The notes under the pieces: model-generated
The model's database searches: none
What the model was told of the DNA's origin: nothing
What the model saw: the letters and a program-made list of their open reading frames with translations, nothing else
Origin: Methanohalophilus portucalensis
GTDB taxonomy: Archaea > Halobacteriota > Methanosarcinia > Methanosarcinales > Methanosarcinaceae
DNA: 64,000 nucleotides
Direction of reading: 5' to 3'
Assembly: GCF_002761295.1 (NCBI RefSeq)
Contig: NZ_CP017881.1
Span: forward strand, 62,001 to 126,000
Shown: piece by piece, positions 42,643-60,293 of the stretch
Layout of the letters: the number at the start of each line of letters is the position of its first letter
How positions within the stretch are numbered: the stretch's first letter is position 1
Program-made: the position numbers and the translations under genes

Positions 42643-42718
42643 AGTCCCGTAGGGTAGTGGTCAATCCTTTCGGCCTTTGGAGCCGAAGACCCTGGTTCGA
42701 ATCCGGGCGGGACTACCA
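42643..42718 (+). tRNA. tRNA-Gln (anticodon TTG), CCA encoded
   Basis: Acceptor AGTCCCG (42643-42649) pairs with CGGGACT, the anticodon stem TCGGC/GCCGA encloses CTTTGGA (anticodon TTG, reading CAA), and the T-arm is CCTGG-TTCGAAT-CCGGG. The discriminator is A at 42715 and the next three bases are CCA. The first pair A1-U72 is usual for archaeal tRNA-Gln made by transamidation. Confidence 0.95.
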
Positions 42719-43683
42719 TCATATTGTCACAAGTCCTATAACTCAGGCAATTGATTTTTCTATTTTATTTATTACAAGTGCAAAAAAATAACCATTAAAT
42801 ACCGTATTCTATCTTTTCAACGTCAGTATTTCTCAACTTCACTACGGGCATTTCCTGATATGCTCTACGTTTGTCTGCTTACATCAAGGAACCAGAAAAA
42901 GATTGTAAATAATCTGCCGTAAATTACATATTCATAATTGGTTATGGTGGCACATTGGCAAATTCAAATATTCATGAAACAGTGTAAAGTTGAAGGCAAA
43001 ATCACTATATTCGATAATTCACAATTGGCCTTTTTTGCAGAATAACAAAAGTTGCAGACATATTGTCTCTCATGACCACTGTTTTAATTCGTTAAACATC
43101 GATTTCTTTTAAATTACAAACTTTATTTTGTATATTCATCTACGACCTTATTATCCCTATTGCACAGCGTGGACACATCTCCATCATTATTCCAAACAAT
43201 CCATACTCCAAATCATACCTGAAAGTACTTGCATCATCCACAAAATAGGATGTATTAGTAATTACATCCTGGCATATAGTATATAATATTTGGAACAATA
43301 TCCTTTTACCAATATGTAAAGAACATTATAGAAAAAGACACATTCTCATAATCATATATGGCCCATTTCTTCAGTTGGTGAATGTATAATAGTACCTGTA
43401 AGTCCTCAAATAACCACATTAATCCCACATATACTTAATTTGTGCTATTAATGAAGGATATATTAACAAAATAGTAAAAAAGAAGTCCACTCTTAGAGCA
43501 GGAGTCTCTTTCCGTGAAGAGAGGGATAGTTGACATGGATTTGTCCAGAGTAAAATTTTTTGTGTAATCGGTTTTTCAGCTGGAAATCATTATATATTAA
43601 TTAACATATAAATTATAATAACCAATTTCCATATACAATTTACTATTTATTATAGCATTGTAGCATTGTAGAAGGGTTAGTAT
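42719..43683. other. 965-bp AT-rich gap between tRNA-Gln and the giant lipoprotein gene
   Basis: No gene is visible in this stretch on either strand. It is strongly AT-rich. Two things stand out: a hairpin and TTGAC terminus at 43486-43534 resembling an IS200/IS605 right end, and very AT-rich sequence at 43580-43660 (ATTATATATTAATTAACATATAAATT) that probably holds the promoter of the next gene. A tRNA gene at its left edge is a common integration neighbourhood, but I find no att repeats or integrase. Confidence 0.7.
43486..43534 (+). mobile_element. Orphan IS200/IS605-type right end (possible omega-RNA remnant)
   Basis: The segment has the layout I associate with the right ends of archaeal IS200/IS605/IS1341 elements: a GCAGGAG lead-in, a hairpin TCTCTT-TCCGTG-AAGAGA at 43505-43522, then GGGATAG and the terminal TTGAC at 43530-43534. 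In intact elements this region follows tnpB and forms the 3' scaffold of its guide RNA. No tnpB or tnpA is near, so this would be a remnant or a very small derivative. The match is from memory of the pattern, not from an alignment. Confidence 0.4.
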
Positions 43684-46600
43684 ATGATACAAAAAAAATT
43701 CCCTAAAAATAATCTTAGAGACAAAAATAGGCTTTTTTTATTAACACTAGTTGTTACAATTTTTGTCATGATAAGTGGATGTGCAGACAACTTTGATGAT
43801 TCAAACGAAAGCGTAATAGTGAATAATCAAACAGAGAATCAAAGCGATTTTGAATCTAATGATGACGAGAATGTAACAGATACAGACTCGGTGCAGGAAA
43901 AAGATGATCCTGAGCCAGATGTAAAAGAGAATGATACATTTACTATACGTGTGAGTTCAGGTGGTTCCGGCAGCAGTTCAAAATCTTCTACACCATCGGT
44001 ATCGGTAACTCCCAGTGGTATACTGGAAGTAGATCCAATGTCAGTAAGCAATAATACTAAGATAAACATAACAGTACTATACGAGGTAGGAGAGAGTCTT
44101 AATAACGGTACAGTTGAGATGGACATTCCATCTGAATTCATTGTAAATAATTTGACGGATATCATTTCTATCTCAAACAATTCAACTACTGTTTCAGAAA
44201 ACTCAAAAGCATCCTATGATGCAAATAATGTACTTTCAGTTGAGAATTTGAATATCAATAAAGCTGATTTTGTAAATTTGACACTTACAAACTACAGTGT
44301 AAATTCCTCCGGGTCCTATAATTTCGCTGCTAGTTCTATGGATACCGGAAAAGAAATGAGCGATAAAGTTTATGCAACGTTTACTGTCTACAATGATAAT
44401 GCTTATTTGAAGAATTTGTCTGCATCTAAAGGAGATGTGGACCCATCATTCGACTCAACAGTATATAATTACAATACGAGTGTAGATTATAATGTCGAAC
44501 AGATTGATGTAAAAGCAATTCTAGAGGATACAAAAGCAACTCTTAAAGTCAATGACACGACTGCAGCCAGTGGTGATGCAGCTACTGTTACACTAAACGA
44601 CCCAGGGACAAGCACTGAAATTATAATAGAGGTTATTGCAGAAGATGGAGAAACTTCCAAGAATTATACTATAAATGTGAGCAGGTCAAATTCGCCTTCA
44701 CTCAGGGATGCCAGTGTAGGAATAACAGAGGGTAGTGTTGTTTTCTCATATGAATTCTATAATGAGACGGGTTCATTGTTTACATACGGTGATGCACTTG
44801 CAAGCCCCTATCTACTTAACAACACAAGTTCAACTGTGACCCTGGTGAATGAGTCTGGAGCATTGACGGATACCATTACTCTTGAAGAACTCGGTATTGA
44901 TGCAGCTGGAAATGTTTCTTATCAGAATGTAACAGAGGTCGGAGAAACGTTCAACATTGCTAATATAATGCAATGGGGATATCCAACCAATATTACACTG
45001 AATCTGACAGGTGGACAGGGTGAATATACATGGAGTTTTAACGGAACAGTTGATTTCAATGCTGGAGATATAAATGCATTCACCTTAATAATCCCAGGTA
45101 GCATAACTGGCCAGGTAACAAATACATCAGGAGCACCTCTTGAAGATGTATTTGTTCAAATTGAGGATATGGAGCAGTACAATGCAAGTACTAACCCAAG
45201 TGGTATTTATATCATCGAAAGAGTACCTGCAGGCACTTACAATGTGACAGCCGGTATTGCCAACTACATGAGCAATACAAGTGAATCGGTGGTTGTGAAT
45301 GCAGCCCAACCTACAACTGGTGTCAACTTTGAACTTATAAGTACAGACTCAACTCTTGGTGATCTTCAAGTCAACCCGGGAACTCTGGACCCTGCATTTG
45401 ATGCTTTGGAGACAGATTACAATGTATCGGTAAGCCATACCGTAGATGAAATTAATCTTACAGCTATTCCTTCCTACCCGCAGGCAAGTATTACCATAAA
45501 CAATTCTGCCTACAACGTTGGTAACGAAAAGACAGTCTCACTGCAAGACCCAGGAGAATCAACTGAGATAGCTATTGTTGTGGCTGCCGAAGATCAGACA
45601 AACACCAGCACATACAATGTCACGGTGGAAAGAGCAGCAGTACCAACATACAATGTAACGTTCAATGTTACAGATGGAACCATACCAATTGAAGGGGCCC
45701 AGATTAACATTTCAGAGAATACACTTACAACAAACGAATCGGGTATATCCAGTATCGATCTGATAAACGGAACCTATGATTATAATATAACAGCCAAAGG
45801 ATATTATCCTGAAAACGGCAGTGTAACAGTGGAAGGTTTACCTGTTGAAATACAGGTCAACATGGATGCCATACCGGTTATCAGGGATGCCAGTGTAGGA
45901 ATAACAGAGGGTAGTGTTGTTTTCTCATATGAGTTCTATAATGAGACTGGTTCATTGTTTACATATGGTGATGCACTCGCAAGCCCCTATCTACTTAACA
46001 ACACAAGTTCAACTGTGACCCTGATGAATGAGTCTGGAACACTGACGGATAAGATTACTTTTAAAGAACTCGGTGTTGACACAGTCGGAAATGTTTCCTA
46101 TCAGAATGTAACAGAGGTCGGAGAAACGTTCAACATTGCTAATGTAATGCAATGGGGATATCCAACCAATATTACACTGAATCTGACAGGTGGACAGGGT
46201 GAATATACATGGAGTTTTAACGAAACAGTTGATTTCAATGCTGGAGATATAAATGCATTCACCTCAATAATCCCAGGCAGTATAACTGGCCAGGTAACAA
46301 ATACCTCAGGAGCACCTCTTGAAGATGTATTTGTTCAAATTGAAGATATGGAGCAGTACAATGCAAGTACTAACCCAAGTGGTATTTATATCATCGAAAG
46401 AGTACCTGCAGGCACTTACAATGTGACAGCCGGTATTGCCGACTACATGAGCAATACAAGTGAATCGGTGGTTGTGAATGCAGCCCAACCTACAACTGGT
46501 GTCAACTTTGAACTTATAAGTACAGACTCAACTCTTGGTGATCTTCAAGTCAACCCGGGAACTCTGGACCCTGCATTTGATGCTTTGGAGACAGATTACA

Positions 46601-48465
46601 ATGTATCGGTAAGCCATACCGTAGATGAAATTAATCTTACAGCTATTCTTTCCTACCCGCAGGCAAGTATTACCATAAACAATTCTGCCTACAACGTTGG
46701 TAACGAAAAGACAGTCGCACTGCAAGACCCAGGAGAATCAACTGAGATAGCTATTGTTGTGACTGCCGAAGATCAGACAAGCACCAGCACATACAATGTC
46801 ACGGTGGAAAGAGCAGCAGTACCAACATACAATGTAACGTTCAATGTTACAGATGGAACCATACCAATTGAAGGGGCCCAGATTAACATTTCAGAGAATA
46901 CACTTACAACAAACGAATCGGGTATATCCAGTATCGATCTGATAAACGGAACCTATGATTATAATATAACAGCCAAAGGATATTATCCTGAAAACGGCAG
47001 TGTAACAGTGGAAGGTTCACCCGTTGAAATACAGGTCAACATGGATGCCATACCGGTTATCAGGGATGCCAGTGTAGGAATAACAGAGGGTAGTGTTGTT
47101 TTCTCATATGAATTCTATAATGAGACGGGTTCATTGTTTACATACGGTGATGCACTTGCAAGCCCCTATCTACTTAACAACACAAGTTCAACTGTGACCT
47201 TGGTGAATGAGTCTGGAGCATTGACGAATACCATTACTCTTGAAGAACTCGGTATTGATGCAGCTGGAAATGTTTCTTATCAGAATGTAACAGAGGTCGG
47301 AGAAACGTTCAACATTGCTAATATAATGCAATGGGGATATCCAACCAATATTACACTGAATCTGACAGGTGGACAGGGTGAATATAAATGGGTGCTAGAA
47401 GAGACCATTAACCTTACATCATCTGACATTGCTGCCTTCATGAAAATGGTAAGTACACCTCCTGATGGAGATCTTCTTGATGCTGCTGCAGGTTCGGACT
47501 TTATGGCAGTGCTCTTTACAAGGGACGGGGATCTCTATCATAAACAGATTGGAGCAGAGGAGACCTGGTCCTCTGAGATTCTTGTCAATAAATCTGCCAG
47601 TGAAGGAAAGATTGTTGTCGATAGCGGGGATAAAACACATGTGACTTATACCACAAACAACGGAACGATTGCCTACAGAACAATGGACAATGGCGGGTGG
47701 ACAGGTGCCCTCTACATAGGGTCCAATAATGCAGGCGAATGTTACTGGCCAGATGTAGATGTTGATTCAAGTAACGATCCACATATAATATATGTCGATA
47801 CAATGGGCGATACTGCTGGAACAAGAAATCAACCTGACCTTATGTATGCATCCCTGAACAATGACGAGTTCAACAAGGTGCTTTTGGCAAGTGGTAATTA
47901 TGATAGAGATTGGAAAATGGGGTCATATCCAGGAGAAAAACCTCCGCAAATAGCAATGGATGCTAACGATAATAGATATTACCTGTATCAATCAAGGTCA
48001 TATAGCCATGACATGTTTGTCGACCATTCTAGAAGAATCGATGTTGTAGGAGCCAACACTGAAAGCCTGGGATCGATCAGTAGCAATACCAATAGATTCG
48101 ATATCTATGATCTGAAAATCGTTGATTCCAAGCTCTATGCTCTCTACAGGGACGACGTCCATATAAAAGCCAATGAGATGAACATCGGTGCAGCTGGACA
48201 GATAACTTCACTCGTGGACAAGGTCGTCTTTGATGCAAGCTCTGCATACTCGCTGGATGTCGCATCGAGTGATATTGTCATCGGCAGCAAGGACGGAGAT
48301 AATCTGAGAGTCCATTACAACGGTATCCCGGAGACAGCCACTGAGATCAATGTCAAAGGAGATGCTGTCTCGATTGTGCATATGGGCGGAAGTTTCTATG
48401 CTGCTTACACGGACAATGAGGATGGTATCATCAAATTTGTAGAAATTCACGAACCCATCCTTTAA
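43684..48465 (+). CDS. Giant repeat-containing cell-surface lipoprotein
   Basis: The 1,593-residue protein has a lipoprotein signal (lipobox ISGC, Cys 33), an Asp/Glu/Asn-rich linker and a Gly/Ser stretch. A roughly 90-residue cadherin-like beta-sandwich (NAYLKNLSASKGDVDPSFDS ...) comes next. Residues 341-1126 are two near-identical 393-residue units and 1127-1235 the start of a third. Each unit contains an N-terminal beta domain (RDASVGITEGSVVFSYEF), a carboxypeptidase-regulatory-like domain (GSITGQVTNTSGAPLEDVFV), another cadherin-like domain (LGDLQVNPGTLDPAFDALE) and a PEGA-like beta domain. The last 350 residues look like a beta-propeller (HVTYTTNNGTIAYRT, DPHIIYVDT). Many NxS/T sequons suggest heavy N-glycosylation. 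It has no PGF-CTERM or C-terminal helix, so lipid anchoring is expected. Adhesion or envelope role inferred. Confidence 0.85.
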   Translation: MIQKKFPKNNLRDKNRLFLLTLVVTIFVMISGCADNFDDSNESVIVNNQTENQSDFESNDDENVTDTDSVQEKDDPEPDVKENDTFTIRVSSGGSGSSSKSSTPSVSVTPSGILEVDPMSVSNNTKINITVLYEVGESLNNGTVEMDIPSEFIVNNLTDIISISNNSTTVSENSKASYDANNVLSVENLNINKADFVNLTLTNYSVNSSGSYNFAASSMDTGKEMSDKVYATFTVYNDNAYLKNLSASKGDVDPSFDSTVYNYNTSVDYNVEQIDVKAILEDTKATLKVNDTTAASGDAATVTLNDPGTSTEIIIEVIAEDGETSKNYTINVSRSNSPSLRDASVGITEGSVVFSYEFYNETGSLFTYGDALASPYLLNNTSSTVTLVNESGALTDTITLEELGIDAAGNVSYQNVTEVGETFNIANIMQWGYPTNITLNLTGGQGEYTWSFNGTVDFNAGDINAFTLIIPGSITGQVTNTSGAPLEDVFVQIEDMEQYNASTNPSGIYIIERVPAGTYNVTAGIANYMSNTSESVVVNAAQPTTGVNFELISTDSTLGDLQVNPGTLDPAFDALETDYNVSVSHTVDEINLTAIPSYPQASITINNSAYNVGNEKTVSLQDPGESTEIAIVVAAEDQTNTSTYNVTVERAAVPTYNVTFNVTDGTIPIEGAQINISENTLTTNESGISSIDLINGTYDYNITAKGYYPENGSVTVEGLPVEIQVNMDAIPVIRDASVGITEGSVVFSYEFYNETGSLFTYGDALASPYLLNNTSSTVTLMNESGTLTDKITFKELGVDTVGNVSYQNVTEVGETFNIANVMQWGYPTNITLNLTGGQGEYTWSFNETVDFNAGDINAFTSIIPGSITGQVTNTSGAPLEDVFVQIEDMEQYNASTNPSGIYIIERVPAGTYNVTAGIADYMSNTSESVVVNAAQPTTGVNFELISTDSTLGDLQVNPGTLDPAFDALETDYNVSVSHTVDEINLTAILSYPQASITINNSAYNVGNEKTVALQDPGESTEIAIVVTAEDQTSTSTYNVTVERAAVPTYNVTFNVTDGTIPIEGAQINISENTLTTNESGISSIDLINGTYDYNITAKGYYPENGSVTVEGSPVEIQVNMDAIPVIRDASVGITEGSVVFSYEFYNETGSLFTYGDALASPYLLNNTSSTVTLVNESGALTNTITLEELGIDAAGNVSYQNVTEVGETFNIANIMQWGYPTNITLNLTGGQGEYKWVLEETINLTSSDIAAFMKMVSTPPDGDLLDAAAGSDFMAVLFTRDGDLYHKQIGAEETWSSEILVNKSASEGKIVVDSGDKTHVTYTTNNGTIAYRTMDNGGWTGALYIGSNNAGECYWPDVDVDSSNDPHIIYVDTMGDTAGTRNQPDLMYASLNNDEFNKVLLASGNYDRDWKMGSYPGEKPPQIAMDANDNRYYLYQSRSYSHDMFVDHSRRIDVVGANTESLGSISSNTNRFDIYDLKIVDSKLYALYRDDVHIKANEMNIGAAGQITSLVDKVVFDASSAYSLDVASSDIVIGSKDGDNLRVHYNGIPETATEINVKGDAVSIVHMGGSFYAAYTDNEDGIIKFVEIHEPIL
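44703..47385 (+). repeat. Tandem 1,179-bp repeat, two full copies and a partial third
   Basis: The junction sequence CAGGGATGCCAGTGTAGG occurs at 44703, 45882 and 47061, exactly 1,179 bp (393 codons) apart each time. Copies 1 and 2 are nearly identical at the DNA level over their whole length. Copy 3 is cut after about 325 bp, where the frame passes into the unrelated C-terminal domain. Confidence 0.95.
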
Positions 48466-48473
48466 ATATGCAA

Positions 48474-48506
48474 ATAACCCCATGAAGATGGGGTTATCTT
48501 TTTTTT
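48474..48506 (+). terminator. Strong terminator after the giant lipoprotein gene
   Basis: ATAACCCC (48474-48481) and GGGGTTAT (48490-48497) form a perfect eight-base-pair stem with an eight-base loop, followed by CTTTTTTTT. It lies nine bases after the stop codon. Confidence 0.85.
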
Positions 48507-49511
48507 GAGAAACATCATCTATTTCAGTACTTAGCTATTCTTTGAATCTTATATTCATTGGGTTTTTCTAATATTTATCTTGCAGTCGCCCTGGGTGTAA
48601 TTATAGAATCGATAGCAATGGAAATTTTGAATGTAAAATATTATTCCCTTACACCTCATAAATAAGGAGTATTTTGCGTGTATGGATAATGCCAGTTAAC
48701 TGGGAGCATTCTTACATAATTCAACCGAATGCGAAAACTTCGCATGCACCTGTTTGCTTGATTTTTCCGACTATGACGATTATGACAGTTTATTTGAATT
48801 CATAAATCTGTCATTCCTAAATCAAAAAGTTCAAAAAATTAATTTTTTCATATCTTTCTGTCGCTGAGATACAACATCGTGTGGCTGTGCCACACTCAAA
48901 CTGGAAAAGCCGCAAGTGGAAAAGGAGGGCGGAATTGCTATAACATTTTTTTAGCATTTTTGAAAATTATGTATTGCTTTATATGGTTCGTTTTGGAAAA
49001 TGGGTTGAAGCGAATCGCTAAATTATTTATAATTTAGTTTCTTCCTGCAAAACTACAAAAAGGGTACAATAGCCATACGTGTCTTCTGTATAGGTACGAC
49101 TTTAGATTTCAAATTCAATGATACTTTGATGTATATGGCGGCAACTAACATAATGCACATTTTTCTTTCCACTAAATTCCTTCACTGTACAATGAATATC
49201 CTTGCATCACCTGATGCTGCTATCTCTCCAATTATAAAATTGTATTATTATATATAATTCACTTAAATGTATTTACCTCTTCATGTATATACGGAATGTC
49301 TCCTGGCAATGATTTTCCAGTATGTATGTCTGGAAACATTTAAATTATATTAATTAGATTCTATTACACGGATTTATTTATATTAATATATTAAGGGGAG
49401 ATATTCAAGTAAACTAACTAGATAAAGGAACTGAAACACAGTTACTTAGATTTTCAATATCAAGCAATTTAATGACGTGAATTTTCATATGAATAAAGTA
49501 AGGTGAATTAT
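48507..49511. other. 1.0-kb AT-rich gap between the two surface-protein loci
   Basis: No intact gene is visible. It contains an apparent decayed ORF at 48700-48960 and a small perfect hairpin GTGTGG-CTGT-GCCACA (48879-48895 region). Towards the right it becomes very AT-rich (49330-49400, including TTATTTATATTAATATATTAA), which is the likely promoter of the five-gene surface operon, with a leader of about 110 bases before the ATG at 49512. Confidence 0.65.
48700..48960 (+). pseudogene. Possible decayed protein-coding remnant
   Basis: The frame starting at 48700 is open for 55 codons and reads like protein (LGAFLHNSTECENF, CLLDFSDYDDYDSLFEFINL). After a TGA at 48865 the same frame continues with plausible coding sequence (TTSCGCATLKLEKPQVEKEG) to a TAG. 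There is no start codon or ribosome site ahead, and a stop codon precedes it. I do not recognise the family, and a transposase remnant is one possibility. Confidence 0.3.
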
Positions 49512-52500
49512 ATGTACGGACAAAATTTAAAATCTATAACAAAACAAAAATCGATATTATTGCCACTGTTGATTGTGACCTTGGTGGTCATGATGACGGG
49601 TGTGGCAGGTGCTACAGTATATGAGATACAACCTGCATATGAACTAATTAATGATGGTGATGTTGCACCAGCAGACAGTGATTTCATTCCGGTGATTGGT
49701 TTCAATCTTAACTCAACAGATGGTGAAATACTTGAATCTGTATCTTTCACTATTGAAGATACCGGGACGGGAGTGAAGAATTCTGATTTTGTTGAAGTAG
49801 CTTTGTTCAATTCAACTGACACAACCTTCAGTGGTGATGACCAAAAGATAGGAAACACAGGTTCGAGTGGTATATCGATTGGTTCTCCTACCAACATAGG
49901 TTCCAATACAGAGATTATATCTGATAGATCTGAAATGCGTTATTTTATAGCTATTAAAACAAACTCAAGCTGGTCTGATTCTGACCCTGCGGATTCAATA
50001 AAGGTCAGTGTTGCTTCAGGAACCTCTACTTATTTTATAAGTATTGATAATGTAGAGGCTACTGCCCTTACTGGAACAAATGTATTAACTGCAGATACAA
50101 CACCTCCAGATGTTGATCTTTCTTATAATCTTACTAGGCCTGTTAAAGACTCAGATACTTTGAATATTACTGCAGACTTCAATGAATCAATTGATACAAA
50201 TCCATCGATTTCTATTGATACTACTGGTGATGATCTCTCTTCTGCATCCATGTCTGGAAGTGGAGAAATTTGGTACTATGAGTATGATGTTCCGGCTGAC
50301 AGTAATGGTATCGCAACTGTAACAATTGATGCTGTAGATCCTGCAGGCAATTCCAATAATGTTGCTACAAACAATATCTTTAAAATTGATAATGAAGTGC
50401 CTGCTTTGACCCTTGACACAATTGTTGACGGTAACGAGTTTGCTGACAATACAGTCTGGATCAACGGTACTTTCTCTGATGACATCTCTAATATCAGTAA
50501 CAACACCCTTGTAATTACCGTCAATGATACTTCTTATGATTACACTGATATCGGTGGTGCATCCAACATAAGTTCATCTGCCTACAACTTCAGTCTCAGT
50601 CTTGGAGATGCTGATCATACTGTAAATGTTTCAGTTTCTGATGAAGCTGGTAACACCAATACCACTGACACTATCGACTTCTCCACCGATACCGAGGGAC
50701 CAGTAATCGAACTTGACAGTATCAGTGAAGGTCAAAACCTCACAGATAGCATAGTCTGGATCAACGGTACTTACAGCGACAATGTAGTTGGAGTTGACAA
50801 CAGTACGCTTGTCATTTCAGTCAACAATACTGAGACATCTTTCGACAGCATGCTGAATGATACGGGTACATTCAATTACTCACTGTCTCTTCCGGATGGC
50901 GACCACAATGTCACAATTGATGTAGATGACAATGTTGGTAATGCTGCAACACAAGTTCTGGCAAACTTCACTGTTGATGCTACAAAACCCACTCTGACCC
51001 TTGACACAATTGTTGAAGGTGACGAGTTTAATTACAGTACAGTCTGGATTAACGGTACCTTCTCTGATGGTATTACTGGTATCAATAACAGTACCCTTGA
51101 GATTCTGGTCAACGGCTCCACGATTGACTCGTCTGTAAGTGAAGAAGGTATTTACAATGCCTCTATAACTCTTCCAGATGATGAACACAATGTCACCGTC
51201 TCCATCGATGACTATGCTGGTAACACCAAAACCACTGACACTATCGACTTCTCCACCGATACCGAGGGACCAGTAATCGAACTTGACAGTATCAGTGAAG
51301 GTCAAAACCTCACAGATAGCATAGTCTGGATCAACGGTACTTACAGCGACAATGTAGTTGGAGTTGATAACAGTACGCTTGTCATTTCAGTCAACAATAC
51401 TGAGACATCTTTCGACAGCATGCTGAATGATACGGGTACATTCAATTACTCACTGTCTCTTCCGGATGGCGACCACAATGTCACAATTGATGTAGATGAC
51501 AATGTTGGTAATGCTGCAACACAAGTTCTGGCAAACTTCACTGTTGATGCTACAAAACCCACTCTGACCCTTGACACAATTGTTGAAGGTGACGAGTTTA
51601 ATTACAGTACAGTCTGGATTAACGGTACCTTCTCTGATGGTATTACTGGTATCAATAACAGTACCCTTGAGATTCTGGTCAACGGCTCCACGATTGACTC
51701 GTCTGTAAGTGAAGAAGGTATTTACAATGCCTCTATAACTCTTCCAGATGATGAACACAATGTCACCGTCTCCATCGATGACTATGCTGGTAACACCAAT
51801 ACAACCAGTCTTGTCAACTTCTCCACCGATACCACAGCACCCGATGCAATCACCGGTGTGACAGTTGAAGACATAAAGAACACAGATGAAAGTCTGACTG
51901 TAAGTTGGGATGCAAGTGATGCGTCTGACTTTGGCAACTACAACATCTACATCAGCACAGAGAAAATCACTGATGTCTCAGAGATGACCCCTGAAGCAAC
52001 TGTTGCTGATAATACCACAACACAGACTTCTCTGACCACAATAGGTGGAATATCTATTGAAGATGGTGTGGACTACTATGTGGCTGTGGCTGCAAACGAC
52101 ACTCTCGGCAACCAGAACAACACGGTGACCGATGCAGGACCTGTCAAGTCATTTGCAGACATGGATCTGGAACTTGATGAAGGATGGAACCTAGTTTCCA
52201 CACCTGTCAGGTTGAATAACTCCAGTACCGAGGATGTGTTTGGTGACAGATATGTATTCTATTATGATGCTACAGAAGCAAACTGGATTTATCCTGAAAA
52301 CATCGAACCTTGCAGAGGATACTGGGTATTCAGTGAAAGTTCAGGAATAGATTCTGTCAACCTTAAATTTGAATACATGCCTGTTGATGACAGTGTATCA
52401 AAGGCTCCTCCGACGCAGTCTCTTGCTGAAGGATGGAACATGATAGGTCATACCAGTACATCAGAAATGCCGGTAATTTTTGCTCTGGAATCTTTGGAGG

Positions 52501-52751
52501 ATATTAGTTATGAAACTGGATTTAGCTATTATGCATATTCTCCTCAGGAGTCTATATCTGTAACACCCTATTACAGCAACCTCCTTATGTATTCTGATGG
52601 AAGATGGGATAGATATGCAAACTTTGAATTTTTCAATTTCAATGATTTTGAATATATGAACCCTGGCGATGGTTACTGGATATTCATGAAAGAAAACAAG
52701 ACCTATGCAGCCATTGATAACTACTATAGGGAAGAGCAGAACATAAATTAA
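49512..52751 (+). CDS. Secreted Ig-like repeat surface protein with fibronectin-like and GWN modules
   Basis: The 1,079-residue protein has a signal peptide (LPLLIVTLVVMMTGVAGA) and a beta-rich N-terminal domain to about residue 190. Successive Ig-like domains of about 95 residues follow, each with a TLDTIVEGDEF or ELDSISEGQN start and a VWINGTFSD or VWINGTYSD core. After these come a fibronectin type III-like domain (DAITGVTVEDIKNTDESLTVSW) and a C-terminal module with two GWN repeats (LDEGWNLVSTPV, LAEGWNMIGHTS). It has no C-terminal membrane helix or PGF motif. The ATG at 49512 follows a GGTGA site, and GTG at 49503 is in frame upstream. Sequons are frequent. Confidence 0.85.
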   Translation: MYGQNLKSITKQKSILLPLLIVTLVVMMTGVAGATVYEIQPAYELINDGDVAPADSDFIPVIGFNLNSTDGEILESVSFTIEDTGTGVKNSDFVEVALFNSTDTTFSGDDQKIGNTGSSGISIGSPTNIGSNTEIISDRSEMRYFIAIKTNSSWSDSDPADSIKVSVASGTSTYFISIDNVEATALTGTNVLTADTTPPDVDLSYNLTRPVKDSDTLNITADFNESIDTNPSISIDTTGDDLSSASMSGSGEIWYYEYDVPADSNGIATVTIDAVDPAGNSNNVATNNIFKIDNEVPALTLDTIVDGNEFADNTVWINGTFSDDISNISNNTLVITVNDTSYDYTDIGGASNISSSAYNFSLSLGDADHTVNVSVSDEAGNTNTTDTIDFSTDTEGPVIELDSISEGQNLTDSIVWINGTYSDNVVGVDNSTLVISVNNTETSFDSMLNDTGTFNYSLSLPDGDHNVTIDVDDNVGNAATQVLANFTVDATKPTLTLDTIVEGDEFNYSTVWINGTFSDGITGINNSTLEILVNGSTIDSSVSEEGIYNASITLPDDEHNVTVSIDDYAGNTKTTDTIDFSTDTEGPVIELDSISEGQNLTDSIVWINGTYSDNVVGVDNSTLVISVNNTETSFDSMLNDTGTFNYSLSLPDGDHNVTIDVDDNVGNAATQVLANFTVDATKPTLTLDTIVEGDEFNYSTVWINGTFSDGITGINNSTLEILVNGSTIDSSVSEEGIYNASITLPDDEHNVTVSIDDYAGNTNTTSLVNFSTDTTAPDAITGVTVEDIKNTDESLTVSWDASDASDFGNYNIYISTEKITDVSEMTPEATVADNTTTQTSLTTIGGISIEDGVDYYVAVAANDTLGNQNNTVTDAGPVKSFADMDLELDEGWNLVSTPVRLNNSSTEDVFGDRYVFYYDATEANWIYPENIEPCRGYWVFSESSGIDSVNLKFEYMPVDDSVSKAPPTQSLAEGWNMIGHTSTSEMPVIFALESLEDISYETGFSYYAYSPQESISVTPYYSNLLMYSDGRWDRYANFEFFNFNDFEYMNPGDGYWIFMKENKTYAAIDNYYREEQNIN
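50671..51810 (+). repeat. Tandem 570-bp repeat, two near-identical copies
   Basis: CTATCGACTTCTCCACCGAT starts at 50671 and again at 51241, and the diverged equivalent starts at 51811, so the unit is 570 bp (190 codons, two Ig-like domains). The copies differ at very few positions, for example GACAACAG versus GATAACAG near 50796 and 51366. They lie inside the 1,079-residue surface protein gene. Confidence 0.93.
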
Positions 52752-52760
52752 AACCATTTA

Positions 52761-52780
52761 ACTGGCGCAGATGCGCCAGT
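52761..52780 (+). terminator. Perfect hairpin between the first two genes of the surface operon
   Basis: ACTGGCGCA and TGCGCCAGT form a perfect nine-base-pair inverted repeat, nine bases after the stop codon, followed by TTCATTTATTTT. The next ribosome site (AGGAGATA) is 13 bases further on. It could be a partial terminator, setting a lower level for the downstream genes, or an RNA processing or stability element. Confidence 0.55.
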
Positions 52781-52803
52781 TTCATTTATTTTAGGAGATA
52801 ATT

Positions 52804-53463
52804 ATGGTCAATAAATTAAGGAAAATATCCATTATCCTTTTTATATCAGTTTCTCTTCTTTTAATGGGAATATCTGTAGTTTTAGCAATGCCTTCAATAC
52901 CCATGTCTGTTGATGGTAATATCACGATTGATAATGAACCAGCTCCTGTCGGTACTATTGTTACAGCTGAAATAGATGGGGAAACGGTAGACAAATATGT
53001 TGTCCAGGACGATGGATGGTACATGTTGACAATTGAAGGTGAAGCAGAGGATTCGGGCAAAACAATTGAATTTTTTATAAATGATAAAAACACGGGGATA
53101 ACTGAAAATTGGGAATCGGGTTCGAATCTAAAAATTGATTTGGCAATATCTTCTGATATTTCTGACAGTAAATCTTCTTCATCGTCATCGTTCTCTAATT
53201 CGTATAATAATGACTCATATACTAATACTACATCAGAAAATACTTCAGAAAATGAAAGGCTTAATAACTCTCCATCTTCTGGCAATCAAAATGTAGAATT
53301 ATCTGAAGAATCTGACTCTGAATATAAGTCTAATGATACTTCCAATCTTAATGAATCAAATAATAATTCATCTTTATCAAAGGAAACTCCTGGATTTGTC
53401 ACAGTCAGCTGCATACTAACTTTGGTTATACTTTACATTATAAATATGTATAAGAGGGAATGA
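52804..53463 (+). CDS. PGF-CTERM-anchored small surface protein
   Basis: The 219-residue protein has a signal peptide (IILFISVSLLLMGISVVLA) and a roughly 90-residue beta domain (DGNITIDNEPAPVGTIVTAEI ... KTIEFFINDKNTG). A long Ser/Asn/Glu/Thr-rich linker probably carries glycans. The C-terminal sorting signal is TPGF, then a hydrophobic helix and NMYKRE. The PGF motif plus helix plus basic tail is the archaeosortase A substrate pattern. The beta domain recurs in the next two proteins. It has an AGGAG site and follows a hairpin. Confidence 0.8.
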   Translation: MVNKLRKISIILFISVSLLLMGISVVLAMPSIPMSVDGNITIDNEPAPVGTIVTAEIDGETVDKYVVQDDGWYMLTIEGEAEDSGKTIEFFINDKNTGITENWESGSNLKIDLAISSDISDSKSSSSSSFSNSYNNDSYTNTTSENTSENERLNNSPSSGNQNVELSEESDSEYKSNDTSNLNESNNNSSLSKETPGFVTVSCILTLVILYIINMYKRE

Positions 53464-53466
53464 TAT

Positions 53467-54045
53467 ATGCATTCAAACTACCGAGATTTAAACAAATTGT
53501 TTTTTACGATTCTGATATCATTATCTTTACTATCGATGCCGGTTACTGCAGAAGGAATACCTCCGCTTCCCAATGCATTCAGTGGGAATGTCACATTAAA
53601 TGGTAATGAAGCTCCTGCTGGCACAGAAATAAATGCATATATAGATTATCAGAATGACACGAATCCAGATGGCTCTTTCATAGTTTCTACCCCTGGTTAT
53701 TACAAATTATCTGTACAGGGGAACTCTGAGGACCATAAAAAGGATATTACGTTTATAATTAATAATTCTTCTGCAGTACAAACGGCAGAATTCAATATAT
53801 ATAGTCCTCCTCCACTAGATCTAGACCTCTCAACTAAGGGTGATAGTATAAGGAAATCCTCCGAAAATAGTTCGATGTTTAATAATATTACCACCCCAGA
53901 GGAAAAAGAGTTAACTAATAATTCTGAAAACAATTCTTCCTCAAATGTTTCAGAATCCCTAGATAGCCTTTCGATTTGGTTAATCTGTAGTTTGCTTGGA
54001 GTTGCTTTTGTAGTGGTTAAATTTGGACGTAAAGGTGGGATTTAA
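53467..54045 (+). CDS. Small surface protein with C-terminal membrane anchor, paralogue of its neighbour
   Basis: The 192-residue protein has a signal peptide (FFTILISLSLLSMPVTA) and the same beta domain as the preceding gene (FSGNVTLNGNEAPAGTEINAYI ... KDITFIINNSSAV). An Asn/Ser/Glu linker follows, then a C-terminal helix (IWLICSLLGVAFVVVKFGRK). Unlike its neighbour it lacks the PGF motif, so it may stay as a membrane-anchored protein. The stop overlaps the next ATG (TAATG). Confidence 0.75.
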   Translation: MHSNYRDLNKLFFTILISLSLLSMPVTAEGIPPLPNAFSGNVTLNGNEAPAGTEINAYIDYQNDTNPDGSFIVSTPGYYKLSVQGNSEDHKKDITFIINNSSAVQTAEFNIYSPPPLDLDLSTKGDSIRKSSENSSMFNNITTPEEKELTNNSENNSSSNVSESLDSLSIWLICSLLGVAFVVVKFGRKGGI

Positions 54046-57000
54046 TGAGTCGAATGAAAATAATTTCAAACATCATGCTAATTCTGTTGTTACTTGTATT
54101 TATGTTGCCTGCAGTTATGGCAGAAGAGTCTGTACCATCGGGGCCCAATATATTTGAAGGCAGTGTTCAGATAAATGATTCTGACGCAACAGTAGGTACT
54201 GTTATAGAAGTTTATATTGATTACACTAACAACAAAGTTCCCGATGGAAGCACCACAGTTGATGTGGAAGGTGACTATGAGATATATGTTTATCCAAACT
54301 CTAATGATGATATAGGTAAGGAAGTTACTTTTAAAGTGACAAACATCGATACAGCGGTGTCTGTTTTTAAAAATGGTCCTATCGTACGTCATCTCAATCT
54401 AACAGCTTATGACACAACACCTCCCACAATAGATTCACCAACTGTGGCATATCCAGAAGGTAAATCCATAGTGAAAAATGGTGATACTGTCACTGTATCT
54501 GCCAATGTAACCGATGAGGGTTCGCAGGTAGAAACTGTTTCCCTGGATGTCTCTGCAATAAATTCTTCTGCTTCAGATGTTGTAATGCAGGAAGATGACG
54601 GGACAACATATGATTGGAACGATAACAGTGCTGCAGATGCAGGACTTTATGGGGCAACGGTTGTTGTCAATACTGAAAATAATGGTGAACAAGCCCTGAG
54701 TATAGAAGCAGTGGATTATGTGGGCAATAACAATTCTTCGGAAGTTGGTTGTAATGTGGATAACACGCCCCCGATTGCGGTTCTTGATGATCCGTTGGAT
54801 AACTCCCTTTTGAAGAATAATGAAATCACTTTCAACTTCAGCCTAACTGACAATCTTGATGACAGTGTGGATTGGACTCTCTATATTGATGGAGTTGAGA
54901 ATGCAAGCGGTACTGGTTTAGATGAAATTTCTGAAACCGTAAGTGGTCTTTCTAAAGGTGTTCACACCTGGAATGTTTCCGTTGAGGATTCTGCCGGTAA
55001 CACAAATGTCAGTACAACACATTCTTTCACTGTTGACACTGAGAAACCCACTATAACCCTTGATACAATCGAGGAAGCAGATTACTTTAATGACAGTACA
55101 GTCTGGATCAACGGTACTTACAACGATAATATAGTTGGAGTTGACAATAGTACTCTTGAAGTTCAGGTAAACGGCATTGTTCCATTGTTTGAAACCATGC
55201 TGAACGACACAGATTCATTTAACTACTCGCTCACTCTTGATGACAAAGTAGACCATAATGTAACAATTGGTGTGGATGATAATTTGGGTAATAGTAATAC
55301 TACTGGTGTCGTAAACTTCACCGTTGATACCATAGAACCCACTTTGACTCTTGATACTATTCAAGAAGATGACGAATTTAATTACAGCAAAGTCTGGATT
55401 AATGGTACATTCTCCGATGATATCTCCAATGTCAACAACAGTACCCTTGTCATTACTGTCAATGATACACCTTATGACTACGATGCGATTGGGGAAGCCA
55501 GCATAAGTTCATCTGACTACAATTTCAGTCTCAGTCTTTCAGATGCTGACAATAATGTCACTGTCTCCATTTCTGACCATGCTGGTAACACCAATACAAC
55601 CGGTCTTGTCAACTTCTCCACCGATATCACGCCTCCAGCAATAGATCTTGATAGTATCAGTGAAGGTGTGAACTTCAAGTATAGCACAGTCTGGATCAAT
55701 GGTACTTACAGCGACAATGTAGTTGGAGTCGACAACAGCACCCTTGTAATTTCAGTCAACAATACCGATACTTCATTCGAAAGCATGATGGATGATACTG
55801 ATTCATTCAATTACTCATTGTCTCTTCCGGATGGCGAGCATAATGTTACAATTGATGTAGCTGACAATGTTGGCAATGATGCAACGCAAGTTCTGAAGAA
55901 TTTCAGTGTTGATACTGAAGGTCATACTTTAACCCTTGATACAATCGAGGAAGGAGATTACTTTACTGACAGTACAGTCTGGATCAACGGTACTTTCTCC
56001 GATGATACTAGCGGTATCAATACCAGTACTCTTGAAATCCTTGTCAACGGAACTTCAGTAGATTCAATTAATATAGTTGGCTCATCAAGTTACAATCATT
56101 CAATAAATCTTGAAGATGCTGAACATAATGTCACAGTTTCTGTTGAGAATAATGTAGGTCATTCAAGCACCACTGGTCCTGTTAATTTCAGTGTTGATAC
56201 TATGCCACCAACTACCGACAATAATGCTCCAAAGGAACCTGCAGAGAATCCATTTACTATAACTTTCCAACCTCTTGACAATAATGGTGGTTCTGGTGTA
56301 AATGCCACTTTCTACAGAATAGATGATGGTGAATGGATAATTGGTGATTCCATAGATATCTATGAAGCCGGTGAATACACCATAGAATTTTACTCAGACG
56401 ATATAGCAGGCAATGAGGAATCTACTAAGACCATAACTGTGAATCTGACTGAATCCGATACAGTTGCACCCGTAACAACAGACGATGCCCCATCAGGCTG
56501 GCAGAATGAGAGTTTCACTGTAAATTTAAGTGCCATTGATGAGGGTGGTTCTGGTGTAAATAAGACTTTATACAGGATGGGCGACGATTGGCTCTCAGGA
56601 ACCTCTATCTTGATAGATACTCCTGGAAATCACACAATTGAATATTATTCAATAGATAAAGCAGGTAATGAGGAAACATCAAATGTCACATATGCTAAAT
56701 ATGACCCCGATGTACCGGGCATGAATGAGCAGAACATAACTCCTAAGTTAATATTGAACACTTCAACAGATACTGCGATTGTTACTGTCAATGTGACAGA
56801 TCAGGTATCAGGTCTTGATAATGTGACTATTGACCTGACACCCATAGGAGAAAGTGTGTTTGAAATGGTTTCCAATGGAAATAACATCTATTCATATTCT
56901 ATCTCTACGACTCATCCGGCAGGTGATTTCTCGTTCAATGTGACTGCAATTGATAATGCCGGTAATTCTGCAAATAAACCCTTGAAGCTGAATGTGTCTA

Positions 57001-57149
57001 CATCGTATGAAGCAATCACTGAATACTCTGGTGAAGATGGTGAAGATGATTTATCTACGAGTGACATTGATCAGGCAATAGAGGATAATGAGGCTGGAGA
57101 AGTATCTGATGAAACAGTACTGGTGTTGATAGAGGAATATTTCAGCTAA
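54045..57149 (+). CDS. Secreted Ig-like repeat surface protein with helical C-terminal tail
   Basis: The 1,034-residue protein starts with a signal peptide (IMLILLLLVFMLPAVMA). The beta domain shared with the two preceding proteins comes first (FEGSVQINDSDATVGTVIEVYI). Seven or more Ig-like domains follow, several with the VWINGT core of the 1,079-residue neighbour, then domains of a second type (APVTTDDAPSGWQNESFTVNLS). The C-terminal 35 residues (DDLSTSDIDQAIEDNEAGEV, then LVLIEEYFS) look like two short acidic helices, reminiscent of a dockerin, though they lack the clear calcium-binding loops. It has no membrane anchor. Start and stop overlap its neighbours tightly. Confidence 0.82.
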   Translation: MSRMKIISNIMLILLLLVFMLPAVMAEESVPSGPNIFEGSVQINDSDATVGTVIEVYIDYTNNKVPDGSTTVDVEGDYEIYVYPNSNDDIGKEVTFKVTNIDTAVSVFKNGPIVRHLNLTAYDTTPPTIDSPTVAYPEGKSIVKNGDTVTVSANVTDEGSQVETVSLDVSAINSSASDVVMQEDDGTTYDWNDNSAADAGLYGATVVVNTENNGEQALSIEAVDYVGNNNSSEVGCNVDNTPPIAVLDDPLDNSLLKNNEITFNFSLTDNLDDSVDWTLYIDGVENASGTGLDEISETVSGLSKGVHTWNVSVEDSAGNTNVSTTHSFTVDTEKPTITLDTIEEADYFNDSTVWINGTYNDNIVGVDNSTLEVQVNGIVPLFETMLNDTDSFNYSLTLDDKVDHNVTIGVDDNLGNSNTTGVVNFTVDTIEPTLTLDTIQEDDEFNYSKVWINGTFSDDISNVNNSTLVITVNDTPYDYDAIGEASISSSDYNFSLSLSDADNNVTVSISDHAGNTNTTGLVNFSTDITPPAIDLDSISEGVNFKYSTVWINGTYSDNVVGVDNSTLVISVNNTDTSFESMMDDTDSFNYSLSLPDGEHNVTIDVADNVGNDATQVLKNFSVDTEGHTLTLDTIEEGDYFTDSTVWINGTFSDDTSGINTSTLEILVNGTSVDSINIVGSSSYNHSINLEDAEHNVTVSVENNVGHSSTTGPVNFSVDTMPPTTDNNAPKEPAENPFTITFQPLDNNGGSGVNATFYRIDDGEWIIGDSIDIYEAGEYTIEFYSDDIAGNEESTKTITVNLTESDTVAPVTTDDAPSGWQNESFTVNLSAIDEGGSGVNKTLYRMGDDWLSGTSILIDTPGNHTIEYYSIDKAGNEETSNVTYAKYDPDVPGMNEQNITPKLILNTSTDTAIVTVNVTDQVSGLDNVTIDLTPIGESVFEMVSNGNNIYSYSISTTHPAGDFSFNVTAIDNAGNSANKPLKLNVSTSYEAITEYSGEDGEDDLSTSDIDQAIEDNEAGEVSDETVLVLIEEYFS

Positions 57150-57161
57150 GGAGTTCAAATT

Positions 57162-58286
57162 ATGAATAATGTATCAAAAAAGACTATTGTGGTAATATTC
57201 CTGGCATTGCTGATGGCCATGCCTGCAGCAGCATCACCATCTTCAGAAAGAATACTTCCCGATTCTGTTAATACAGGTGAGGAATTCAATGTAACTATAA
57301 ATGTCAGTAATTACGGCAACTTCTCAATGGTGAATGAAACATTACCCACAGGTTTCACTTTTGAGAATCTGGTTACTGATGACAATGTCAATGTGAATGA
57401 TGACAATGTCAATGTGAATGATGGGGGATATCTTCTGTTTTATTTCTTCAGTCTGGATAACTTCACCTATACATTGAAAGCCCATTCTTCCGCAGGCACC
57501 TATGATTTTGATGGTTATCTGAATGATTCAACTACTACTATCAATGGTAGTCAATCTCTGAAGGTAAATTCTGTATCCGATCCTGATGACACTTCTTCCT
57601 CCTCCAGTGGGGGAGGGGGTGGTGGCGGTGGTGCCACAGGTGAAGCCTTTGAGAATATTGCATCAAAATATGCACAGCTGAGGACTGTTTCCATTGGAGC
57701 GGATATCAGTTATGAATTTGATGAAAGTGACATTATGTATGTCAATTTCAAAGGCAACACAAACTCCGGTCAGGTAAAGGTGCTCATCGAAGTGTTGAAA
57801 GATACTTCCACTCTGGTGGATGAAGGCGTACCAGGTCAGGCTTACCGCCACATCAATATCTGGGTGGGTAATTCTGCCTTTGATGAGGACAACATGGAAG
57901 ATCCTGTAGTCGGTTTCAGGGTGAGCAAGGACTGGCTTTCTGATAATGGTGTTGAGCCGTCTTCAGTCTCTCTGTTCCACTATGACAATGGCTGGGAGCA
58001 GCTGGTAACCACTCAGACAGATGAGGACGATGATTACTTCTACTTCGAGGCAGAAGCAACCGCCTTTTCACCATTTGCAATTTCGGCGGTAACAGAAGAG
58101 GCTGTTTCAGAAGACGAAACTGATCAGGATGCAGATGAACCAGCCACCGATGAAGAGGAAACAGTTGAAGAGCCATCAACCGGGCAAGAGGATAAACAAC
58201 CTGATAATTCTGTACCAGGTTTCAGTTCCATGCTTATGGTAGGCATTATAGGCTCTTTGTACGCACTATTCAGAAAGAAGGTTTAA
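57162..58286 (+). CDS. PGF-pre-PGF domain surface protein with PGF-CTERM signal
   Basis: The 374-residue protein has a signal peptide (TIVVIFLALLMAMPAAA) and an N-terminal beta domain of the adhesin type (SVNTGEEFNVTINVSNYGNF). A Ser/Gly spacer with eight consecutive Gly is followed by a domain matching the PGF-pre-PGF family (QAYRHINIWVGNSAF ... VGFRVSKDWLSDNGV ... EATAFSPFAI), an acidic linker and the sorting signal VPGFSSMLMVGIIGSLYALF with RKKV. It closes the surface operon, and the AAGGAG site before its ATG is strong. In Methanosarcinales this domain accompanies PGF-anchored envelope proteins. Confidence 0.85.
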   Translation: MNNVSKKTIVVIFLALLMAMPAAASPSSERILPDSVNTGEEFNVTINVSNYGNFSMVNETLPTGFTFENLVTDDNVNVNDDNVNVNDGGYLLFYFFSLDNFTYTLKAHSSAGTYDFDGYLNDSTTTINGSQSLKVNSVSDPDDTSSSSSGGGGGGGGATGEAFENIASKYAQLRTVSIGADISYEFDESDIMYVNFKGNTNSGQVKVLIEVLKDTSTLVDEGVPGQAYRHINIWVGNSAFDEDNMEDPVVGFRVSKDWLSDNGVEPSSVSLFHYDNGWEQLVTTQTDEDDDYFYFEAEATAFSPFAISAVTEEAVSEDETDQDADEPATDEEETVEEPSTGQEDKQPDNSVPGFSSMLMVGIIGSLYALFRKKV

Positions 58287-58319
58287 AGTGAGGCATTAAT
58301 TGCCCACTTCTTTATTTTT
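58286..58319 (+). terminator. Terminator of the surface operon
   Basis: AAGTG (58286-58290) pairs with CACTT (58305-58309), with GGC/GCC pairing inside across an A-C mismatch, and CTTTATTTTT follows. It begins at the last base of the final gene. Confidence 0.6.
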
Positions 58320-58461
58320 CAATTTTTTCTAAATAAAAGTGTATTTGAATAAACCTGAGTTTTTGCTTCATTTTCTCCATGAATAAGTATGTGATTTGTT
58401 CACGGTGATATACACTTTTGGATATTGTATAATGTTGCAAACAAAGTCACAAAAATTTGCC

Positions 58462-60240
58462 TCACTCACATCCATTTTTCGCACAGGCCTTTACTGTTGC
58501 AGTGCTGTCATCCCTTTTCTCCCCGGTCCCCCCGATCTCCAGCACCTGTTCTGCCTTGCTTCCATAACGGTAAGCAGCAATTCCCTTACACTTCAACCGG
58601 TAGGCCAGCATGTAGATCTCCCGGAAATCCTCCTCCGTAGCCTCATGGGGCAGGTTCACGGTCTTGGCAACGGCATTATCCACATGCTTCTGGAAAGCGG
58701 CCTGCATCCTCACATGCCATTGGGGTTTAATCTCCAGGGCGGTGGCAAAGACCCGTCTGGTCTCTTTGGGGATATTCAGGATGTTCTGGAGGGAGCCGGT
58801 TTCGGCGATTTCCTCCATCAGATGTTTGCTGTAGAACCCGTGTTTTCTTGCCATCTCCTCAAAAACAGGATCGATCTCTGTCAGCCGGGTTCCCATCACA
58901 TTGCGCTGGTAGGTGAGGGCGAACATCGGTTCAATTCCTGAAGTGGTATTTGCAATTATGCTCAGGCTGCCTGTGGGGGCCACGGTATTCACCGTTGCAT
59001 TGCGCATTGCAGGATAATCTTTTGCAAGAGTACTCCTGTGGAAATTCGGGAAACTGCCCCGCTGCTCACCTAGTTCCACAGATTTTTGCACGGCTTCTTC
59101 CCGGATGAACTTCATTACTTCTTCAGCTGTCGCAATTCCTTCCTCACAATCATAGGCAATCCCCAGGCGTGCCAGCATGGCGGCAAATCCCATGACACCC
59201 AGGCCGATCTTGCGGTTTTGTTTTGTCCTCTGCTCGATTTCCGGGAGGGGATATTTGTTGGCATCGATCACATTATCCAGGAAATGCACTCCTGTATCGA
59301 CCGTTTCCTTCAATTTCTGCCAGTCGATTGCCCCTTCCTTAACCATCAGCGCCAGGTTGATCGAGCCGAGGTTGCAGGATTCATAGGGCAAAAGAGGCAC
59401 CTCTCCGCAGGGATTTGTACTCTCGATTGTGCCGATTGCACTCATGGGATGTTTGCGGTTGATCTCATCCAGGAAAAGCAGGCCAGGATCTCCGGTCTGG
59501 CAGGCACACGTCACTATCCGGTCAAACATATCCCGTGCCTTTAATCTCTTCTTAACTTTACCGGTTCGGGGATTTACAAGGGCATAATCCCTGTCCTGGC
59601 TGACAGCCTCCATAAATTCATCCGTCACGCCCACCGAGAGATTGAAATTGCGCAGCATATCCTCCTTTTTCTTGGCCCCGATGAACTTGAAAATATCCGG
59701 ATGGTCAACTCTCAGCACCCCCATATTGGCTCCCCTGCGCCTGCCGCCCTGCTTGATCACATCCGTTGCCTTATCAAAGATCGTCATAAAGGAAAGGGGC
59801 CCGGAAGCCACGCCTTCTGTGGAGCGCACAGGGTCTCCCTCCGGTCGCAGGTCTGAAAAGGAGAATCCTGTGCCGCCGCCGGATTGGTGGATGAGGCTCA
59901 TATCCTGCAGGGATTTGAAGATACTTTTCAGGGAATCTTCCACAGGCAACACAAAACACGCACTCAATTGCCCCAGCTCGGTGCCCGCGTTCATGAGGGT
60001 TGGGGAATTGGGAAGGAACTCCAGATCTGCCATTACCTGATAAAAATCATCTTCAGTTTTATCCACACTGTATCCGTAGGTGCTGTCAACTCCGGCAATA
60101 GCCTTTGCAACCCTGCGGAACAACTCGTTGGGCTCTTCTGCGATTTTGCCCTTTGCATCCCTTAAAAGGTAGCGCTTTTCCAGCAACGTTTTTCCATTGG
60201 CGGACAATTTGGATTCGATCGTGTTATCCTCTTTATCCAT
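58462..60240 (-). CDS. nrdJ: Class II (adenosylcobalamin-dependent) ribonucleotide reductase
   Basis: The enzyme reduces ribonucleotides to deoxyribonucleotides with an adenosylcobalamin radical. The 592-residue protein has the ten-stranded barrel motifs LNAGTELGQLSACFVLPVED, GGGTGFSFSDLRP, GGRRRGANMGVLRVDHPDI, the active-site NPCGEVPLLPYESCNLGSIN and a C-terminal Cys pair (ACAKNGC) that would pass reducing equivalents. It begins directly at the catalytic part, so there is no N-terminal ATP-cone. ATG at 60240 is preferred to 60252. Confidence 0.94.
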   Translation of the reverse strand: MDKEDNTIESKLSANGKTLLEKRYLLRDAKGKIAEEPNELFRRVAKAIAGVDSTYGYSVDKTEDDFYQVMADLEFLPNSPTLMNAGTELGQLSACFVLPVEDSLKSIFKSLQDMSLIHQSGGGTGFSFSDLRPEGDPVRSTEGVASGPLSFMTIFDKATDVIKQGGRRRGANMGVLRVDHPDIFKFIGAKKKEDMLRNFNLSVGVTDEFMEAVSQDRDYALVNPRTGKVKKRLKARDMFDRIVTCACQTGDPGLLFLDEINRKHPMSAIGTIESTNPCGEVPLLPYESCNLGSINLALMVKEGAIDWQKLKETVDTGVHFLDNVIDANKYPLPEIEQRTKQNRKIGLGVMGFAAMLARLGIAYDCEEGIATAEEVMKFIREEAVQKSVELGEQRGSFPNFHRSTLAKDYPAMRNATVNTVAPTGSLSIIANTTSGIEPMFALTYQRNVMGTRLTEIDPVFEEMARKHGFYSKHLMEEIAETGSLQNILNIPKETRRVFATALEIKPQWHVRMQAAFQKHVDNAVAKTVNLPHEATEEDFREIYMLAYRLKCKGIAAYRYGSKAEQVLEIGGTGEKRDDSTATVKACAKNGCE

Positions 60241-60293
60241 ACAAAACCCCATTTTAAGATTGGGTTAAGATGCTTTATAATTACCTCGCCTTT

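Follow-up and report, generated by a model that had tools for sequence, protein, structure and literature searches.

In the 64,000-nt stretch of the Methanohalophilus portucalensis genome analyzed here (called the window), five adjacent genes for surface proteins, A to E, combine large secreted proteins with small anchored ones. We consider it moderately probable that the C-terminal domain of protein A, termed AC, docks large secreted proteins onto anchored proteins carrying a second domain, termed the B-domain, giving a modular surface assembly encoded by a single operon.

A probable operon of five surface protein genes

The ORFs of A1082, B219, C192, D1034, and E374 are all genuine and are located on the + strand between positions 49512 and 58286, separated from A to E by 52, 3, −1, and 12 nt. 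This agrees with the initial annotation, which had described close-packed, co-oriented genes; the spacing and shared orientation are best explained by one operon. The features are as follows (window positions; the host genome has 2,084,875 bp).

49512 to 52751, + strand: A1082; anchorless protein running from a signal segment and an N-terminal beta domain through a Big_13/Ca_tandemer Ig array and an fn3-like domain to AC at the C terminus
52158 to 52715, + strand: AC domain of A (residues 886 to 1071 when numbered from GTG), built of two GWN...GYW half repeats
52804 to 53463, + strand: B219; signal segment, B-domain, Ser/Asn-rich linker, TPGF plus helix plus basic tail
52888 to 53142, + strand: B-domain copy 1 (in B219)
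53467 to 54045, + strand: C192; signal segment and B-domain, joined through a linker to a plain transmembrane helix at the C terminus
53557 to 53823, + strand: B-domain copy 2 (in C192), modelled as a transthyretin-like beta sandwich
54045 to 57149, + strand: D1034; anchorless protein with a signal segment, a B-domain at the N terminus, an Ig array of Big_13 and OmpL47 type, and a helical module at the C terminus
54132 to 54401, + strand: B-domain copy 3 (N terminus of D1034)
57012 to 57146, + strand: C-terminal module of D; aligns with the EF-hand/dockerin-like ends of D-type relatives
57162 to 58286, + strand: E374; behind the signal segment a DUF11/BatD-like N-domain, then a Gly-rich linker leading to the PGF-pre-PGF domain (57645 to 58085), and last PGF plus helix plus basic tail

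An N-terminal hydrophobic signal-like segment is present in all five proteins, and a C-terminal helix was found in B219, C192, and E374 and in neither A1082 nor D1034. The initial annotation had likewise described both large proteins as lacking a membrane anchor and the 192-residue protein as ending in a plain helix. For A, two starts are available, ATG at 49512, yielding 1079 residues, and GTG at 49503; because of the sequence AAGGTGA upstream of it, the ATG, which had also been chosen initially, is the more likely one. Directly upstream of A lies a region of about 1 kb (48466 to 49511) with 31% GC and without a convincing gene, possibly a long leader or regulatory region.

The 219- and 374-residue proteins had been annotated as carrying PGF-CTERM signals. 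A P-G-F motif followed by a helix and a basic tail is indeed visible at the ends of both B219 and E374 and recurs in relatives, but both score below the curated PGF-CTERM cutoff, and E374 is instead a strong PGF-pre-PGF protein (TIGR04213; 163.1 bits for residues 162 to 308 at a curated cutoff of 28). A relative at locus L137 passes the PGF-CTERM model TIGR04126. Archaeosortase A is encoded in the genome (TIGR04125; 303.6 bits at a cutoff of 75), and B219 is probably sorted by this enzyme.

The AC domain of A1082

AC comprises the final ~185 residues of A and is conserved where the rest of A is not. Each half of the domain holds a GWN and a GYW motif, the two halves align with one another (hhalign probability, 97%), and the conserved aromatic residues are W895, W928, Y940, W941, W978, Y1058, and W1059. 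No Pfam model exists for AC, and a comparison with PDB sequence profiles yielded no relative. The structure model (pLDDT, 85.4; pTM, 0.83) gave no clear match to PDB folds in Foldseek or VIA, a result that does not establish a new fold.

For the scan of genome contigs, an AC profile of eight alignment rows was used. Among 52 scanned AC proteins, Big_13 domains were found in 16 and cohesins in 8, with DUF11, PKD, FG-GAP, and others in fewer; by these domain assignments, AC is a constant end joined to varying fronts. One AC protein of 1542 residues (L142:2717-7345) contains glucose/sorbosone dehydrogenase, CHRD, and cupredoxin-like domains, and the gene behind it encodes a B-domain protein ending in a helix. 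The protein encoded at L146:4000-4734, upstream of another AC gene, has a cytochrome cbb3-type match (4.4e-6) and what looks by eye like a dockerin-like end.

The Ca_tandemer repeat (NF033510) of A1082 scores 55 bits, above the cutoff of 50. The protein also contains a 570-nt tandem duplication (50691 to 51260 and 51261 to 51830; 559 of 570 positions identical), which reads as a sign of recent change in array length. A and D each contain 52 N-glycosylation sequons, twice the expectation from shuffles that keep each protein's composition (mean, 22 to 23).

The B-domain and its carriers

A domain of ~90 residues is common to B219, C192, and the N terminus of D1034, with BLASTP values of ~1e-15 between B and C and ~1e-13 between C and D. 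A B-domain profile recovers all three window copies in the genome at ≤1e-39, this profile having been built from those copies. The recurrence initially noticed in the genes at 52804, 53467, and 54045 thus represents similarity beyond chance. The B-domain gave no Pfam hit, and its best match among PDB sequence profiles was a weak one (0.0016) to a biliary glycoprotein Ig domain. The AlphaFold model (pLDDT, 83.6) found its best Foldseek match in 9hfj (2.4e-4) and reached VIA Z scores of up to 7.7 against usher C-terminal, carboxypeptidase, and CnaB domains, scores that are usual for such folds; the predicted fold looks like a transthyretin-like beta sandwich. The idea that the B-domain or the N-domain of E might be a hidden cohesin is unsupported, and the B-domain does not align with local cohesins.

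In B219, the linker between the B-domain and the helix spans ~78 residues and is Ser/Asn-rich. D1034 scores 48.5 bits with the Ca_tandemer model (NF033510), just under the cutoff of 50; it reaches 65 of the 250 bits required by the OmpL47 equivalog model NF047441 but passes the OmpL47-type domain model NF047446 with 93 bits. Its C-terminal module (57012 to 57146) gave no Pfam hit in the window protein. D1034 is the long version, confined to its lineage, of a partner that in Methanosarcina is short (273 to 284 residues).

Pairing of AC and B-domain genes

At the family level, 72 of 97 AC matches have a same-strand B-domain nearby, nearly all at most 1.4 kb downstream; of the 131 B-domain matches, 110 adjoin an AC match. 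In the fetched, partly selected loci, a B-domain gene is next to AC in 59 of 64 AC proteins, mostly within ~130 nt. AC was detected in 106 and the B-domain in 103 of 187 genomes of the order, both occurring together in 95 (Fisher test, 2e-30, ignoring relatedness), and in a class-level search the pairing continued in the three other families of the order inspected (f2, f4, and f5). The predicted topologies of the two groups differ: a C-terminal helix is absent from all 64 AC-only proteins and present in 81 of 113 B-only proteins, with PGF and helix together in 33 of the 113, these counts being approximate, as helices were called by a hydropathy threshold and contig gaps truncate some of the ORFs.

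Natural fusions join the same parts, namely, B-B-AC (L087 and L088), AC-B-dockerin (L139; L153 is AC-B with a dockerin-like end by eye), and B-domain plus PGF-pre-PGF (L053, L076, L077, and L078). Trees of AC and of the neighboring B-domain correlate with a rho of 0.63, the best of 500 shuffles reaching 0.16. By sequence evidence, genes for AC and for the B-domain are passed on together as a pair. The initial annotation had proposed a modular assembly, perhaps held by the domain shared among three of the genes. Joint conservation and natural fusions bear out the modular part, but the most telling link is that between the B-domain and the adjacent AC domain of A, which had been overlooked.

The two domains also occur apart. 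Five of the six AC genomes of family f3 have no B, most genomes of family f7 contain one weak AC-like match and no B, and a Dehalococcoidia contig carries AC without B, so AC need not always work with B. In family f4, B matches without AC were found in six genomes. One f3 locus (L148; G122:C85) contains four tandem AC genes with no B-domain nearby.

Conservation of the gene set in relatives

Profile and protein searches covered 112 genomes of the family, plus fetched loci. Methanolobus psychrotolerans (L102) has the order A-B-C-D-E, with an A of 2016 residues and D split over two contigs; because the repeat matches at the break, we infer that the two contig ends belong together. A Methanosarcinaceae metagenome-assembled genome (L104) shows A-B-D-E, likewise split. 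The arrangement in Methanosarcina is A-B-short D-E, with E located ~1.7 to 2.1 kb past AC in 22 of 24 scored genomes; in G081, among the remaining 2, short D is fused to E, and a similar short D/E fusion forms one long frame in G092. The initial annotation had called for a search in other Methanosarcinales and held that members not conserved together would speak against its reading; in M. psychrotolerans, L104, and 22 of the 24 Methanosarcina genomes, they are conserved together. The notion of the five genes as a fixed unit was dropped: the long D was found in just three genomes, and in Methanosarcina a single short gene appears in place of C and D.

A second AC/B-domain system is present in the same genome (G000:C1:424-430 kb; L045:3552-9382) and consists of a 793-residue protein, an AC protein whose repeats are of the DUF11 type, and a pair of small proteins with B-domains. 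Its lead protein has repeated acidic segments and an EF-hand-like end and gave no Pfam hit. Systems of this type are common in the family.

Proposed assembly and alternative explanations

By sequence, A is large, secreted, and anchorless, with an Ig array and a terminal AC domain; B and C are small proteins in which a short Ser/Asn-rich linker separates the B-domain from a C-terminal anchor; and E is an anchored PGF-pre-PGF protein. In the proposed assembly, AC of A would dock onto the B-domains, and B and C would thereby hold A, while D may use its C-terminal module to bridge A to a further partner and E may stabilize the base. The assembly would display a long glycosylated fiber or scaffold for adhesion or aggregation; the suggested function in adhesion, aggregation, or matrix is read from the Ig arrays only.

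Docking of AC onto the B-domain is the best reading of the gene pairing, the predicted topology, the fusions, the tree correlation, the varying fronts on a constant AC, and the presence of archaeosortase A. Against it count the occurrences of AC without B (f3, f7, and Dehalococcoidia) and of B without AC (f4); moreover, any stable operon should show tree correlation and co-occurrence. Sugar binding would be equally compatible with the aromatic GWN/GYW pattern, and AC might instead be a carbohydrate- or S-layer-binding module that fixes A to cell glycans, the B-domain proteins being separate surface proteins of the operon. We regard this as unlikely: it would fit the richness of AC in conserved Trp and Tyr and the cases in f3, f7, and the Dehalococcoidia contig where B is missing, but it leaves unexplained why AC and B genes are tightly paired across several families and why AC-B fusions exist. 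Nor does the AC model clearly match any known carbohydrate module, with the reservation that the Foldseek and VIA matches are too weak to exclude one.

The fusions of parts and the order-wide pairing of AC with the B-domain also argue against co-regulated but independent surface proteins that form no physical complex, which we consider decidedly improbable even though operon spacing alone would yield co-expression and the parts ahead of AC vary freely. Least probable in our view is homotypic pairing among the B-domains of B, C, and D, along the lines of the earlier suggestion about the shared domain, with A having another partner. Three copies in consecutive genes and tandem B-B arrangements in some relatives would be in line with it; at many loci, however, a single B-domain protein stands beside AC, so that such pairing between different proteins is no general rule. 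Returning to docking between AC and the B-domain, we put forward, more tentatively than for the window operon, that the two constitute an unrecognized pair fastening secreted fibers and cohesin scaffolds to membrane-anchored receptors in several Methanosarcinales families, in a role like that of the type II dockerin/anchoring cohesins of cellulosomes.

Comparison with known surface systems

The nearest working analog is the SlaA/SlaB S-layer of Sulfolobales (PMC10903991), which likewise combines a large unanchored outer protein with a smaller membrane-anchored partner. There, the N-terminal beta-sandwich domains of SlaB face SlaA, and SlaA is the more variable protein (PMC10903991); the fold match between the B-domain model and SlaB was moderate (8qox_B; Z, 6.5; rmsd, 4.7; 98 aligned). 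However, no sequence relation was detected, SlaB has a 132-residue coiled-coil helix (PMC10903991) where B219 has its Ser/Asn-rich linker of ~78 residues, and the sequences give no indication of the two-dimensional lattice that SlaA/SlaB forms. The Methanosarcina S-layer is built by other proteins, those of the MA0829 family (PMC3361143).

The nearest architectural analog is provided by cellulosome-type cohesin/dockerin scaffolds, of which archaeal versions have been described (PMC9012536). In other families of the order, 8 of 52 AC proteins carry cohesins and neighboring genes encode dockerins, so AC sits where the cell-anchoring module of a scaffoldin would. Specifically, at L141 and L149, a dockerin is encoded in the upstream gene, a cohesin in the AC protein, and a B-domain with a C-terminal helix in the next gene; the order dockerin gene, cohesin-AC or AC gene, and B-domain gene with a C-terminal helix was observed at L141, L145, and L149. 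In contrast to such scaffolds, the window proteins have no Pfam cohesin or dockerin hit, and AC and the B-domain match neither model.

E374 is a PGF-pre-PGF protein (TIGR04213), a family whose definition is silent on partners; here, PGF-pre-PGF goes with an operon of B-domain genes, and relatives have it fused to the B-domain itself. Ca_tandemer/Big_13 adhesins and OmpL47-type proteins share the Ig arrays of A and D, but their models cover the repeats only, not AC or the B-domain. The window proteins pass the tested features of neither SlaA/SlaB nor cellulosome-type scaffolds. The accessible portions of the literature on PGF-pre-PGF, on PGF-CTERM in Methanosarcina, and on Methanohalophilus surfaces contain no description of the A-to-E gene set. 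That long free proteins are, in many relatives, usually encoded beside small membrane-anchored ones suggests a hitherto undescribed way of tethering fibers or scaffolds to the archaeal cell.

To our knowledge, how most anchorless secreted proteins stay on archaeal cells is poorly known. A comparative study from 2022 listed many archaeal cohesin/dockerin proteins and stated that their binding partners need experiments (PMC9012536). A conserved pair of secreted and anchored domains beside such scaffolds offers a concrete, small, and expressible candidate cell anchor. The A-B-short D-E operon is also present in genome G074, which we take to be Methanosarcina acetivorans, and as this organism is genetically tractable, the tether idea is testable.

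Variable locus between tRNA-Gln and the nrdJ-like gene

In the window's own genus, conservation of the gene set fails, the site being variable there. The locus is delimited as follows.

42643 to 42718, + strand: tRNA-Gln(TTG), left border of the variable locus
43684 to 48465, + strand: U1593, co-oriented surface protein of the variable locus with lipobox-like ISGC and cadherin-like plus CarboxypepD_reg repeats; possible member of the A-to-E system
58462 to 60252, − strand: ribonucleotide reductase-like gene (nrdJ-like, named by inspection), right border; conserved throughout the genus (8 of 8 genomes)

Homology with four relatives of the same genus stops at 42715 to 42719, the 3′ end of tRNA-Gln, and resumes at 58454 to 58466. 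No integrase or att repeat was seen at the tRNA border, and an Rfam scan found the tRNA alone. The interval between the two borders measures 15.7 kb in the window (42719 to 58465), comprising U1593 plus A to E, and 22 nt in G036; in G034, it holds one U1593-like gene of 1351 residues, and in both G032 and G035, an AC gene with a B-domain/PGF-pre-PGF fusion gene behind it, the AC gene of G035 perhaps being broken into two ORFs. An AC/B-domain pair thus occupies this locus in three of the five compared genomes (the window, G032, and G035). U1593 itself contains long near-identical repeats and a Pfam match to BslA (biofilm surface layer A) at residues 114 to 224 (1.5e-11). The locus is a hotspot for alternative surface cassettes, and its variability suggests that such cassettes are exchanged between strains.
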